From: Argopecten irradians
Taxonomy: Eukaryota > Mollusca > Bivalvia > Pectinida > Pectinidae
Reading direction: 5' to 3'
Assembly (NCBI RefSeq): GCF_041381155.1
Contig: NC_091142.1
Coordinates: 22,096,362-22,160,361 of the forward strand
DNA: 64,000 nucleotides
Made by a program: the position numbers and the translations under genes. Below, piece by piece: positions 46,560 through 52,982 of the stretch. Each line of letters starts with the position of its first letter. The first letter of the stretch is position 1. The notes under the pieces are model-generated. The model was not told the origin of the DNA. It searched no databases and saw only the letters and a list, made by a program, of their open reading frames with translations.

Positions 46560-46898
46560 CTAAAACCTACCCTCACTATGAGCCATACATTTGGAACATG
46601 CATGTTTAATGGCCAGTCTTAGGTTCCGATAAAACTTAGAAGTGCCTAGTGAGTTAAGATGGCATCCGTCAGGTAAAAACAAATCGTGTGGGCTTTCATG
46701 CATGCGCTTGTGACGCCACATCAGTAAACCTTCACAAAACTGTACTAATTTAAAAATGTCAGTATTGGTCTCCTCTCTGCGAGTTTCATATACATGGGGA
46801 TGCATGCCTCTAGGGTTCGGGCGTTTGAATATGTCACAAATCAACACGAACATAACCCCATAATTGCGACGTAGGTGGCTAGCAAAACGGACAATCTG
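46560..46898 (-). other. SGNH-hydrolase-like segment, C-terminal part (fossil, split by a transposon)
   Basis: About 110 residues ending in the SGNH block V: LFLPDGCHLNSLGTSKFYRN holds the Asp and His of the catalytic set. Upstream VRFASHLRRNYGV is typical of the SGNH proteins that accompany tyrosine-recombinase elements. The DNA transposon begins at 46899; the matching N-terminal part with the GND block lies beyond it, near 52983-53090. Broken; treated as part of the Ngaro-like element. Confidence 0.7.
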
Positions 46899-47127
46899 CA
46901 GGTTGGGGAAATCTGCCATATTCAGCTATATAGCTGATATCAGCTACTCTAGCTCATAACAGCTACTATCAATAGCTCATTTCAGCTATTCGGAAACAAT
47001 ATGTTTGTCGACGTGTCAAATACACAAAGTCGCACGTGCGCCACAAAATTATCGGGTACCCACATGCATCAAACTCTGTATATAAACAAGTTTCGCGAAT
47101 GTTACCACGTCATTTTTCCTGCAGCGG
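46899..47127. repeat. Left 230-bp TIR of the 6-kb transposon, with AGCT palindromes
   Basis: After CAGGTTGGGG comes AAATCTGCCATAT and then a cluster of AGCT-centred dyads. The perfect 16-bp palindrome TCAGCTATATAGCTGA is followed by TGATATCA, CTAGCTCATAACAGCTAC and AATAGCTCATTTCAGCTATT. The inner part holds GTCGACGTGTC, GCACGTGCG and GGGTACCC. The right TIR (52755-52977) repeats all of it inverted. Confidence 0.9.
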
Positions 47128-47557
47128 TTGAAGAAATACACAACTATCATAGAAAGTGACCACCATGCTCACCTGCATTCCAATTTGAAGTAAGTTAACT
47201 TAATATCTGCACATATATCTGCCATCTCCACCTTCCATGACACCCAAACATTTCTCTCTGCTGCAAGTACCCGGATGCGGAAGTAGTCTAAGCTGAAAAA
47301 CGACCCAGATTAGGAATCCGAATCGGGTCAATGCTGTAAAAATACGGATGCACATAAATGTAAACCGTAATCTTAAAATATCATTGGTGATTGAATTAGT
47401 CATTAAAAAATCAACAAAATCACTACAATTTTACGTTTTATTACAAAATATTGTGCGATTAAAGTTAATCAATGCGTATTTACAAGTGAATAACATATAT
47501 ATTTATCATAATATGCGACATAATCTTTACTATATTTTTGTGTTCTTTTTTTTTTAG

Positions 47558-50500
47558 ACTAAAAATGCCAGAATGCAGCTGTAACAAGCATGGTGATTTC
47601 TGCACTGATCAACAAAATTTTAAAATCTATAAGATCTCTTCAAAAAAGTATAAAGTTGCAGTTGTAAATAGATTGAAAGAACTTGATTATTTAGGACAAA
47701 GAGCCAATTATTTATGTACTCAATGCGCAATTTACTGTGAACAGAATTTTTTTAAACAACAAATCAACACTCGTCAACGAGGTCATTACGGCAATACAGA
47801 ACAAATGAAATTTGTAAAAATGATTTATTGAGGCTGTCTACTGCATTGGGTAAATGTCAATTTAATGAACTCACTGACGATACAAAAAACATTTCTCATG
47901 ATTATATGTCCGAAAACTTTGCTGAATGTGTTTTAGCCACGAATGGTTAAGGAAAAGGAACCAGATATTGATCAACTTTCTTTGTGCCCTTTGTAATGTA
48001 GATTTCTTTGGAGCATCAGGAAAAAAACATTGTCTCGATTTTTGATTGTTGTGGAAAGTGTGTATGCACTTCGTTGCACAAACTCTGGTGTTGCCATTGT
48101 CTTTTTGCAAAAACCTCCTTACATATTTCATAACCGGAAGCAAGAATGCCTGTCTATTGAACTCTGTATTAGGTCCCTGTGGTAGTTACCAAACCATTCT
48201 AAAATGGATTAATGCTAATTCTGCTCAGCCAATCCGTGTACCGGACAATTGTGATATAATTACCTAATTTGATAATAATCAAGTTTTGGGACGTAACTGG
48301 CGCCTCCGTCACGATGCGAAAGCTCTTATGAGCATAACAAACTACAGTGGTCCATTTTTATTCCATCTCCTACATCACACCTTCAAAACAATCTTAATCT
48401 TTCTCCAAAGAACATGGCTGTACAATGCAAGTAACAAAGATGCAGTGTCCAAAATTTTGCTCTTAGGCCAAACATGCGACTCCATTTTTAGGAATTTGCG
48501 CGCTCAATTCCTCCAACAACGGATTCAACATGTGTTAGGCCAACAGGAAAACAACGATGGCGAATTTTGTGATTGTATTGATGTTGAAATAAAAAAACGT
48601 AAGCGACTTAAGAAAGACCCCGCGTTAGTCGAGAGAAGTCCAAACACAATATAGATGTGTACAATATCGTTAACCATTCACACAATGAACCACCAACTGT
48701 TATGATGGGGGATCCCATTGGCGTCAATCCTTGTTCTCTAGATGCGATCAAAGAAGTCCTTTTGCAGCTAAAACAAACGGCAATAGCACATGATCGGCAT
48801 TGGACCATAATTGGTTGTGACGGCCTGCCATACCATCTTGCATCGAAGGTCATAGACGCAAATGAAGAGCTTCACGACATCCTTCTACAGCCCGGACTTG
48901 GTCATTACGAAATAAACTTGACGAAAGGTAGGCTAATTGGTTATTTGCTTCATTTGCTTCATTTTCACCCAAGAATTATTTTGAAATTTGTTGCAGTAGT
49001 GTGACTCTATTTTTCACTTATGGCTTTTTAAAATCCATGTTCAAAGTTTTAATAGTTTCATATTTTCTCTTCTATGTTTCAGCTTTCATCAAATTGACAT
49101 GGGACGTTGTTGGGGAGGACCTTGCCAAAATGCTGGGTTTCCGGACTCCAAAAGCCCTCAACGCTTGTAAACAGGCAAACGACCACCATAAGGCCTGGCA
49201 AATGATCGAGATTTTGCTGTATGGATTAGGTATGATGAAATACACGAACATTGTAATAATTTATGTTCTGGTTCAATATAACTCCAATTTTACTGTTTTA
49301 ATCTTGTTTTCAGGTGACGAACTTCTCTTACCATACGTAAGAACATGTTTGGACAGCGGAACTGAACCTAGTGCCGATGGTTTCTTCTCCTGGAGTCAAG
49401 ATGCTGTGAATCCAAATTACAGGTAATCACCAGTCACGATAACCTTTACTGTATTGTTCTTGTCGTTTCTGAAGTGAAATTACCATGTTTGTTAATTTCA
49501 TATCCTCCTTGTTATATGCTGTGTGAAATGCATCTCCGCTTTTATTTATCATTATTTAGGTTTCTGTTGGAGTGTATCTTCACATATGGTGTGGCACTCC
49601 ATTACTTTCGTGCTGGTGTCCGACGCAACAACAGCAGGGTCATGTTGGCTTCAAGGATGAAGTTGTCGCCTCTCTTCTATGGATTGCATAAAATCAATTA
49701 CCAGCGCATTGATTTCCTAGACCTGAAGTCCCGCGTATTAGCACCGCCAGAAATTGCTAATTACATCAACGACCATGAGTCTTTCACAGTGTCCGGTCAT
49801 CCAAGCAAAGGAGAGGGGTGCGATTTCATCCTAGAGGCAAACAATCGGGCATCGAAGATGTGGCTGCCACCCGGATCCCCGTCACAGGACCACTGGCTAA
49901 GAGTATGCCGTAATCTTGACCGCCTGAAAAAGGTACCCTGTCCCTGGCTCATTGTGTAATCCAACTTTTAGAACTACTCAAATCGCTCTCAATACTAATC
50001 TCTTGTCGCTTGGCTGAGAGGTTGAAAAACAAACCATCTTCGTTCTTTCCATAACTTTTTTGTTCACCTCCTTTTTGGAGAGCTCCGCACAAGGGGAGAG
50101 AACACATAACATTCAGTGAGACAAAACAAACATTTGTAATTTCAACGGTATCAATCAAAATACTTAACAATGGCGTGGAATTTGTCAATATTTCATGTTA
50201 TATGTTTCGTATGAAATGTAGAACAATACATTTATGCTATATTTTACTTCTTTGCTGTGTAAAAGAATTAGCCTGAGTGAATTGTCCCTTTGATAATAAT
50301 TAATAATTCAATAATTGAATTGAAATCCAGTCGTCATCTTTCTGAAATAAAACCATATAAACCATACAACTCAGAATTACAAGTAGTTCACATCATTTAT
50401 TTTTTCATTACATGTAAGAGTATATTATCGGTGAAATGGACACAAATATTTAACATTTTTTAAACTGTGTTTTTTATTTTTAAAAAAAAAACCCACAACA

Positions 50501-52016
50501 CTGATCATGGCACCAGTAATCACATAATCGGTGGTCACACCCAATCCAATAACCACGTTCTGTCGGTGAAAGGCATATGTTGCACACCTCTGGCGTTTTA
50601 GTTAGGATTCTGTCTGTTTGTGAGAGTTTGTTTCTGTAGATAAGCTGTGTAGTTGTTTTTGGGTTTTTTTTGAGAAGGGGAAAAACGGATCGGTTTGGGA
50701 GAGGGAAAATAATTTTTACAGAGAGAGGGTGGTGGGCATGGACTGCGCGTTGGAGAAAGTGAGTGATCTGCGGTGTGTGATGGAGAAATTCTGTCAGTGT
50801 CGGTGTGATCAGTGATGGGAAATTCCTCTGGGTGTCGGTGTTATCAGGTGATGGTCCCGTCAGCACGTCGGTATCCATCGGCTCAATGACATCAGTCTGT
50901 TGTAATAGGTCTGGCTCCTTCATCTGCTCAGTGATGGTGTTAGTGTTCTGTGAAATTAATTAAAACGCATCTGTAATTAATAGGCTATATATGTAATAGA
51001 AATACCTACAGTGAATGTGTAAAAAGTATAAGTTATATAATAGGGGAGATAAATGGATGGTTTACTTTCTTGGAAACTTTGACAGAAGATGCATAACAAC
51101 ATATTTACTTCATAAATTATATATGAAAAATATTGAAGTACGGGAAAATTTTGCAGAATGTGAGACTACCACATTAAGTGAATTTTGATAATCATTTATA
51201 TGTATATTTATTACCTGCTCGAAAAATGGTGTATTATAATGGAAGGTCTTTCCATTTGGCGTCCGTACGATAATCATTACTTCGCATCCCGTAATCTCGT
51301 GGAGTTCTTTGCCCTACAAAACCAAATTTGTTTGAATATTTACAGATTGAGATTGATTTCAACCAAACACTTGGTGTCAAGGAAAGCAAGGATTCAATAT
51401 ATCATTGTAATTCCAACGTAGAGATTACAGAGTGGCGGAAACATATAAGAGAGTCTGAGTATCTACTCGCACCGTGCCAAGCTCGAAATCACCAATCTCT
51501 GAGTGGTATAGCACTGGATGCTGATCTCGCAGATTTTTCCGCCAAGTGTAAAGGCAATCGGTTAAGTTATCTGGCCGAAATTGAAGCCTACAAGTAAGTT
51601 CATCATTGTTGATTATATTGACGACATTTTTGCGAAATGTACTGTAAATCATCTGTATTATATTGTTTTTTAATGGTGTAGAGATTCATAAAATACTGTA
51701 CTCAACCGTTATAAGACGTAAACAAATATTATCTTTCTTTTATTTTACTTAGATGAGCTAAAAAACGGCAACTAACCTAGAGCCAGTCTTCATATTGGCT
51801 AATGACAAAGTATCATACCAAAAAATTGACAACAAAACCAAGGCTGAGATCGGGAGCATGATAAGAGGCATACTTCAGCAGATCCAAGACGAAGCCGATA
51901 CAGATCTTGACATGTACGAGTCTCTGCATAAGAAATGGGAGAGGGAAATTAAGAATGCTACCAAGCCTGTACTTATAAGTTTTTATAAGGAGGCCTGCAT
52001 GGCGTTTGGAATCTTT
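47558..52016 (+). CDS. Transposase-like multi-exon gene of the 6-kb transposon (damaged 5' third)
   Basis: I do not recognise a named family, though similar PGLGHYE-type proteins recur as orphan genes in invertebrate genomes. The ATG at 47565 follows an acceptor at 47556-47557. The N-terminus has a Cys set (PECSCNKHGDFC, YLCTQCAIYC), a likely zinc-binding region. The frame then shifts near 47815, again around 48000-48290 and near 48620. From 48657 exons join cleanly: to 48927, 49083-49229, 49314-49422, 49560-49932 and 51346-51593, all GT/AG with matching phases. Core motifs are WTIIGCDGLPYH, PGLGHYEINLTKAF, NDHHKAWQMIEILLYG, DELLLPYVRTCL and KLSPLFYGLHKINYQ. Acidic residues in these could form a DDE-type site, which is inference. 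After 51593 the next acceptor (51752) gives a stop at once. A further open piece (about 51768-52016, NDKVSYQKIDNKTKAEIGSM) may be the original C-terminus. Confidence 0.7.
49950..50300. mobile_element. MITE of the AAAGGGACAATTCA family inside the transposon
   Basis: It ends TTAGCCTGAGTGAATTGTCC plus CTTTGA. It shares AACTACTCAAATC, AATACTTAACAATGGC and ATGTAGAACAATACATTTAT with 56488-56855. It lies in the intron of the plus-strand gene after 49932, so it is a secondary insertion or part of that intron. Confidence 0.65.
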
Positions 52017-52252
52017 TGATGTGGCATCTGTGGATGAAGGTATATTTGAATTAATATGAAAAAACATTTAATATTTACTTTGCTCAAAACGGTGATGCGA
52101 CGGCTGTATATAGCATCGTTCCTTTTCTTTGCATCATGTATAAAATCAGTTGATCTTTTCCCTTTCACCACTGTTCCCCTCTTTTTCTGGCCCTTTGTGT
52201 TTTTACCGGGATTTGATTTTCTGGCTTGTTTTCCACAAAAGCGAATGCTGTC
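50480..52252 (-). CDS. Lys-rich protein with C-terminal PHD-like zinc finger, minus-strand gene of the 6-kb transposon
   Basis: Two exons join in phase on the minus strand. 52252-52079 (acceptor ATTCAG, donor GTAAAT) has 58 codons, Lys/Arg rich: GKNTKGQKKRGTVVKGKRS. 50947-50480 (acceptor TTCACAG, stop at 50480-50482) has 155 codons plus stop. The second exon is acidic and Thr/Pro rich at first (EPMDTDVLTGPSPDNTDTQR). It ends with CNICLSPTERGYWIGCDHRL, CDYWCHDQC: a C-x2-C, W-I-x-C, C-x2-W-C-H-x2-C pattern like the PHD fingers that read histone H3 tails. A possible first exon starts with ATG near 52609 (MHGIPEAAVRCLITGDGRWE), but its donor is not resolved. The gene overlaps introns and the end of the plus-strand gene. 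It could target insertion or help the transposase; this is inference. Confidence 0.6.
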
Positions 52253-52754
52253 CTGAATTATATAAAAGAAAATTATTGTTTTTAATGTACCCGCGCATTA
52301 ATATATGTATCAAGTTTTTTTTTATTTAAAAATATATCGATTTCAAACATATTTACCTTTTAATTATTAATTATTTATTTCCAATGTTTTAAAATATTTA
52401 TCCATCTACTGGCGTTTCTTGTCACAATGAAAATAATTTGATAAGTTTGGTAAGAATTATGACAAAGGCAACAAAATAATATTTGTACGAAAATAATTTT
52501 CATTTTTGTTTCGTGTTTGGGCCACCGTAGATATAACACTGGAAGATGCGGATTTCCCATCGTCCGTCTCCCGTAATTAGACAGCGAACTGCAGCTTCCG
52601 GTATACCATGCATGGTGAAGCAGTGACATGTCAGGTAATCAGTTGTTTTGGTTTTGACAATATATTATGTACATATTTAAACACAAAATTAGTTTATGTC
52701 GAGGTACCCTTACCATTTTCTCGTCTTTCAGGGTACTTCTCCGTCTTCTACGTT

Positions 52755-52977
52755 AAAAATGACGTGGTAACATTCGCGAAAACTTGTTTTATATACGGAG
52801 TTTTGATGCATGTGGGTACCCGATAATTTTGTGGCGCACGTGCGACTTTGTGTATTTGACACGTCGACAAACATATTGTTTCCGAATAGCTGAAATGAGC
52901 TATTGATAGTAGCTGTTATGAGCTAGAGTAGCTGATATCAGCTATATAGCTGAATATGGCAGATTTCCCCCAACCTG
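52755..52977. repeat. Right 230-bp TIR of the 6-kb transposon
   Basis: It is the inverse of 46899-47127 with only a few single-base and length differences. The TSD ATCTG follows at 52978-52982. To its right (52983-53090, minus strand) the SGNH-like segment resumes with the block ILQICGNDLCDK. Confidence 0.9.
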
Positions 52978-52982
52978 ATCTG

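Follow-up and report, generated by a model that had tools for sequence, protein, structure and literature searches.

A CAGG-ended DNA transposon family of Argopecten irradians with a putative DDE transposase and an antisense MADS-PHD gene probably captured from SRF

The element and its copies

The 64,000-nucleotide stretch of Argopecten irradians DNA analysed here (contig NC_091142.1, positions 22,096,362 to 22,160,361; hereafter the window) carries at 46899-52977 a 6-kb DNA transposon with two opposed genes, one on the plus strand for a putative transposase and one on the minus strand for a protein combining a MADS box with a PHD-like finger. On the whole, it is probable that this element exemplifies a divergent cut-and-paste family that associates a DDE transposase with an SRF-derived MADS-PHD accessory protein. 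It is bounded on the left by ATCTG followed by CAGGTTGGGGAAATCTG and on the right by CAGATTTCCCCCAACCTG followed by ATCTG; it starts with CAGGTTGGGG and finishes with CCCCAACCTG, i.e. its termini are of the CAGG...CCTG type. Its terminal inverted repeats (TIRs) and target site duplications (TSDs) are the following:

46894..46898, no strand: left TSD, ATCTG
46899..47117, plus strand: left TIR, first bases CAGGTTGGGG, with a dyad, CAGCTATATAGCTG, at positions 25-38 from the end
52755..52977, minus strand: right TIR
52978..52982, no strand: right TSD, ATCTG

The TIRs comprise 169 bp at 100% complementarity and a 61-bp block at 75%, and a gapped alignment gives 219-223 bp at 98%. The 10-mer CAGGTTGGGG taken alone shows no genome-wide enrichment in the host assembly (845.8 Mb), with 494 + 698 versus 629 + 540 for the reversed control, which speaks against the reality of the element. 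The same assembly contains, on contig C6, a second copy of the family that is 99.2% identical across 6082 bp and is flanked on both sides by TAATA. As this copy sits between its own duplications, the element of the window is mobile DNA and a chance inverted repeat is ruled out; the transposon is real and its boundaries are sound. The original prediction, made from the letters of the window, had fixed the ends to the base and had proposed a search for further copies sharing these ends and a 5-bp TSD; both the ends and the expected copy are borne out. Its 230-bp TIRs stand as long arms that include a 61-bp block of 75% complementarity.

An antisense gene encoding a MADS box and a PHD-like finger

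The antisense gene has three exons, listed here in their order of reading:

52079..52252, minus strand: exon a, basic extension and first half of the MADS box, donor ..AGCAAA/gtaaat
51215..51313, minus strand: exon b, remainder of the MADS box, GKELHEITGCEVMII.., inside transposase intron 4-5
50425..50947, minus strand: exon c, PHD-like finger CNIC..WIGC..CDYWCHDQCC..CPFH, inside transposase intron 4-5

The two genes are interleaved: exons b and c occupy an intron of the transposase gene, and transposase exon 5 in turn falls in the intron that separates antisense exon a from exon b. No start exon was found for the antisense gene. The PHD-like exon is split into two frames in the window copy and is undivided in the C6 copy.

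Exons a and b joined score 26.5 bits against the Pfam family SRF-TF (PF00319, cut-off 26) and the equivalent region of a sister family, F2, scores 29.0 bits, so that the MADS box is above the cut-off in two families whose MADS-PHD proteins share 32% identity. The nearest solved chains to the MADS-PHD protein are MCM1 (E 4e-4) and SRF (E 1e-3), followed by MEF2A (E 0.07). The C-terminal finger scores 22.0 and 19.8 bits against PHD (PF00628), under the cut-off of 24, yet the spacing of its zinc ligands is that of PHD fingers; it is therefore termed PHD-like. An antisense zinc-finger gene of this kind had been predicted, and the finger holds, while the MADS box upstream of it had been overlooked.

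Origin of the MADS box

A search of the genome with PF00319 gave four matches at three loci, all of them host loci. By their sequences, we take the locus on contig C3 to be SRF and those on C10 to be of the MEF2 type. In host SRF, the MADS box reads KGRVKIKMEFIENKLRRYTTFSKRKTGIMKK before and AYELSTLTGTQVMLLV after a phase-0 intron located between KK and AYEL. A phase-0 intron occurs at the same boundary in the gene of the window (SK/GKEL) and in that of F2 (QK/AKDI), whereas in both MEF2-type loci an intron precedes VTFTK and KK/AYEL is uninterrupted. Since both the position and the phase of the intron match host SRF and not MEF2, an animal SRF gene is the probable source of the MADS box, taken over together with its intron. 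The direction of capture would be from SRF to the transposon and, in the simplest reading, the genomic DNA of an animal was the source and the capture predates the split of the two transposon families. The encoded protein resembles transcription factors of the SRF/MCM1 type by its MADS box and by its intron site, and differs from them in being carried by a transposon, in being fused to a PHD-like finger and in having many of the usual MADS residues altered.

Recurrence of the gene pair

Antisense pieces of MADS or PHD sequence are found at 8 of 20 further places where the transposase occurs, each time on the opposite strand (8/8). Five have E<0.01 (L047, L051, L053, L059 and L060) and three are weaker (L062, E 0.017; L056, E 0.10; L031, E 0.34); as L051/L053 and L059/L060 are near-identical pairs, the eight places amount to about six families. 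The 12 places without such a piece are expected, because the flanks covered were 1.5 kb per side at all places except L031. In the reciprocal search, the MADS-PHD protein of F2 gave 23 matches in the genome at E<=1, distributed over 11 places; 7 of these have a transposase match no more than 10 kb away, in opposed orientation in all seven cases. No transposase match is listed near the four others (C1:17990, C371, C7:44110 and C8:37142); the pieces at C1:17990175-17990428 and C371:42055-42498 could be decayed elements or solo copies. From one family to another, the two genes stay together, opposed and with the exons in the same order, and the pattern of zinc ligands is kept as well.

Target site duplications and related ends

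The TSD was assessed on 10 two-ended insertions belonging to the window family, to F2 and to a family of miniature inverted-repeat transposable elements (MITEs) with CAGGTTGGGG:

Window copy: ATCTG, exact
C6 copy: TAATA, exact
Five MITEs, 540-615 bp, CAGGTTGGGGAC ends: TTCAA, ATATA, TTATA, TTGTA and ACTAA, each exact
Short F2 derivative, contig C1: TTGTT, exact
Full F2 copy, C932: AATGA versus ATGAG, 4-bp match ATGA, no 5-bp match
F2 copy, C14, ends separated by ~31 kb: TTCAA versus TCATT, unmatched

The count leaves out one-ended sequences (L025, L026, L027, L032 and L033), diverged or rearranged pieces (L028-L031) and the F2 copy on C2, which has a damaged left end. An exact 5-bp TSD, the length announced by the original prediction, is thus present in eight of the ten insertions. 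Together with TIRs and copies at unrelated sites, this fixed length is what characterizes TIR transposons that move by cut-and-paste. The MITE family (L067-L071, contig C1; 540-615 bp, CAGGTTGGGGAC ends, 5-bp TSDs) has 617 first-look candidates, 40 of which were scored. A long tandem array (L064:150-1750), with a unit like CCACTACTTGGTTGGTCGGTCAGTCCCGGAGGTTTGA, adjoins the F2 copy on C14 or lies within it.

Four types of ends, namely those of the window family, of F2, of the MITEs and a lone end at L029, begin with CAGG and carry a dyad centred 30.5-32 bp inside. The four dyads are unrelated in sequence. Shuffling gave p = 0.00045, 0.00745, 0.00885 and 0.00065 for the four types, values that apply to a range of positions picked after inspection and to end types that may not be independent. 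The lone end, CAGGTTGGGCACAACCCTGCATATGGGTAACAGTTACCC, is at L029:477 on the minus strand with its dyad at the matching position, and the element to which it belongs was not found.

The putative transposase and its relationships

The exons of the sense gene, as read from the sequence, join in frame through GT/AG introns:

47565..48927, plus strand: exon 1, Cys-rich N terminus MPECSC.., FDNNQ near 48268 and GCDG near 48813; extent taken from the unbroken F2 exon (L066)
49083..49229, plus strand: exon 2, ..NDHHKAW..
49314..49422, plus strand: exon 3
49560..49932, plus strand: exon 4, DFILEANNRASK, candidate catalytic E
51346..51594, plus strand: exon 5, by eye like exons of L064/L066
51762..52019, plus strand: probable last exon, an open frame that by eye is like the F2 continuation

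In-frame joins of this kind occur on both strands, in accordance with the two opposed spliced genes that had been predicted. The predicted division of the transposase into many small exons is right for several shorter exons and does not extend to the 5' exon, which is long. In the window copy, exon 1 is interrupted by stops and frame breaks and its frame ends at 47831; an in-frame stop directly follows the nearest acceptor (51752) of the probable last exon.

The acidic motifs FDNNQ, GCDG and (D)FILEANNR are conserved in the window family, F2 (whose transposase is unbroken across two exons, with a reading of 705 aa), L042, L044 and L059/L060, and we infer that they form the D-D-E set of a putative RNase H-fold transposase. 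A C2H2-like finger, C(2)C...H(4)H, follows GCDG shortly in F2 (exon 2, L066:2545-3372) and in L059/L060 and is absent from the window family. No strong match to any named superfamily was obtained in Pfam, NCBIfam (no match at all) or PDB sequences, so that the result on which the original prediction could have foundered did not arise. Stretches of viral contigs matched a pattern in seven cases and none was a relative.

A weak relationship is suggested with the Pfam family DUF6589 (PF20231), against which the window core scores 25.6 bits and 21.4 bits (E 6e-6 to 1e-4; cut-off 27). On these grounds the element might belong to Academ, a known superfamily, from which it would depart by an exchanged second gene and by the length of its TSD, 5 bp. 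The register of the match is sensible, as hhalign places GCDG on GGDQ and GHYEIN on FHTEMA. The host genome has 87 DUF6589 matches, and in the two families read the DUF6589 genes (L076:4401-8333 and L077:4564-7812) are each accompanied by an antisense Helicase_C gene; these are candidate AcademH elements, their content being that ascribed to AcademH in the accessible part of PMC10045372; their repeats exceed ~9.5 kb, with homology continuing past both sides. According to the portions available of PMC10045372 and PMC10799480, AcademH elements consist of a transposase and one accessory gene, and in the host DUF6589 families, as in the window family, the second gene is antisense to the transposase.

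The similarity to DUF6589 is nevertheless below the Pfam cut-off and appears in one of nine rows of the lineage alignment (most rows being fragments); the F2 reading has no match at E<=1, and the hhalign comparison with three DUF6589 proteins of the host genome is not significant (probability 0.4%), so that a profile-profile link was rejected. The accessory gene encodes a helicase in AcademH and a MADS-PHD protein here; no helicase was detected in the four element proteins and the antisense protein scanned, which are a subset of the open frames. The TSDs given in the accessible part of PMC10045372 are 9-10 bp for AcademH and 3-4 bp for AcademX, which carries a nuclease, and the 5-bp TSD fits neither, apart from the one 4-bp match and the one insertion without match in F2. 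The argument also depends on equating DUF6589 with the transposase of Academ, a step that we infer, and no open-licence paper naming DUF6589 was found. A search of phages with the DUF6589 protein of L077 gave none. Taken together, these data make membership in Academ rather doubtful, and the placement of the transposase, as a new superfamily or as a divergent lineage related to Academ, is uncertain. The prediction of an undescribed superfamily accordingly stands as regards the poor fit to named ones, whereas novelty is reduced to a possibility by the weak DUF6589 match and the AcademH-like layouts of the host genome.

A model for transposition

For the divergent cut-and-paste family proposed above, transposition would probably proceed in this way. 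The sense gene would provide a divergent DDE-type transposase, distantly akin to DUF6589 proteins, that would recognize the CAGG ends with their dyad ~31 bp inside, cut at these ends and join them to a target staggered by 5 bp. The convergent and interleaved antisense gene would provide the MADS box plus PHD-like protein, descended from the captured animal SRF gene. Our best guess is that this protein has an accessory role, most likely as a DNA-binding dimer that would aid the assembly of the end complex, with the subterminal dyad as a plausible binding site, while the PHD-like finger would tie this complex to chromatin, as RAG2 does beside RAG1.

Several observations weigh against this model. 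The whole MADS-PHD protein of the window reaches 25.4 bits against SRF-TF, just below the cut-off, and the PF00319 genome search did not recover the transposon exons, single exons falling short of E 0.001. The full F2 copy of C932 has only a 4-bp match between its flanks and the C14 copy none, and the MITE family is linked to the window element through end sequence and TSD only. The D-D-E set was assigned from conserved motifs, independently of any fold, and a stop just before FDNNQ is common to both copies of the window family; because both share it in frame, this family may now move in trans only or no longer move. Finally, the TIRs of the window element and of F2 have no SRF consensus CC(A/T)6GG at <=1 mismatch, and the proposal that TIRs carry such sites was rejected on this ground; at 1 mismatch, one is found in the MITE end and two in the L029 end (~0.3 expected). 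The coding part of the window element contains one exact site.

Transposons carry captured genes, and the MADS-PHD gene could accordingly be a chance passenger that plays no part in transposition, a view with which the broken state of the window-family copies and the missing SRF sites of the window and F2 TIRs agree. The transposases of the families that keep the MADS-PHD gene are ~50% identical. That the pair should persist across this divergence, with opposed genes, a constant order of exons and the same zinc-ligand pattern, points to selection and makes a mere passenger unlikely.

Comparison with RAG-like, Transib and CMCT elements

As described in the accessible part of PMC7204232, RAG-like transposons have a 5-bp TSD, a convergent gene pair and a PHD-bearing partner. 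The window element has the same TSD and layout, with a second protein whose finger resembles PHD but scores under the PF00628 cut-off. It differs from RAGL/ProtoRAG and Transib in that no RAG1-type transposase and no kelch repeats were detected, the MADS box taking the place of the kelch propeller, and in that its ends are CAGG and not of the CAC type, as the original prediction had noted. Membership in RAG1/Transib was rejected, as neither Pfam nor PDB chains gave a match at E<=1.

The same features would be explained if the element belonged to the CMCT clade (CACTA/Mirage/Chapaev/Transib, RAG-like) with a different partner gene. The available part of PMC12730594 describes this clade by CA..TG termini, a TSD of 2-5 bp and a zinc motif, C(2)C and H(3-4)H, located between the second D and the E. 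The termini and the TSD length have counterparts here, and for the zinc motif the picture is mixed, a C2H2-like finger being present after the second D in F2 and L059/L060 and absent from the window family. Such membership is most improbable, given the missing sequence match to RAG1/Transib, the antisense protein without kelch, the CAGG ends and the window family without the zinc insert.

Significance

No transposon bearing a MADS box or SRF was found among the matches listed, judged by titles and abstract starts in the open-licence literature, which does not cover Repbase; likewise, among the open-licence papers listed for Academ and PHD fingers, none reported such an element by its title. 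In PMC7642931, SRF-TF and transposase both occur, in the part available merely as tabulated domain counts. It may tentatively be suggested that the family represents an undescribed superfamily, defined by CAGG ends, a subterminal dyad and 5-bp TSDs, in which an animal SRF gene, captured with its intron and fused to a PHD-like finger, supplies a RAG2-like accessory factor; this would be the first known MADS-box protein of a mobile element and a second, independent origin of a RAG-like layout, in which a DDE transposase is opposed to a partner with a PHD finger and the TSD is 5 bp.

If this is true, a transposon would have recruited the domain of a core animal transcription factor and put it to work, the intron being a fossil trace of its source. 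The family would be a test case for the exchange of domains between genomes and mobile elements. It would also offer an independent comparison for the way in which a partner with a PHD finger becomes indispensable to a DDE transposase, the question that underlies the origin of V(D)J recombination.

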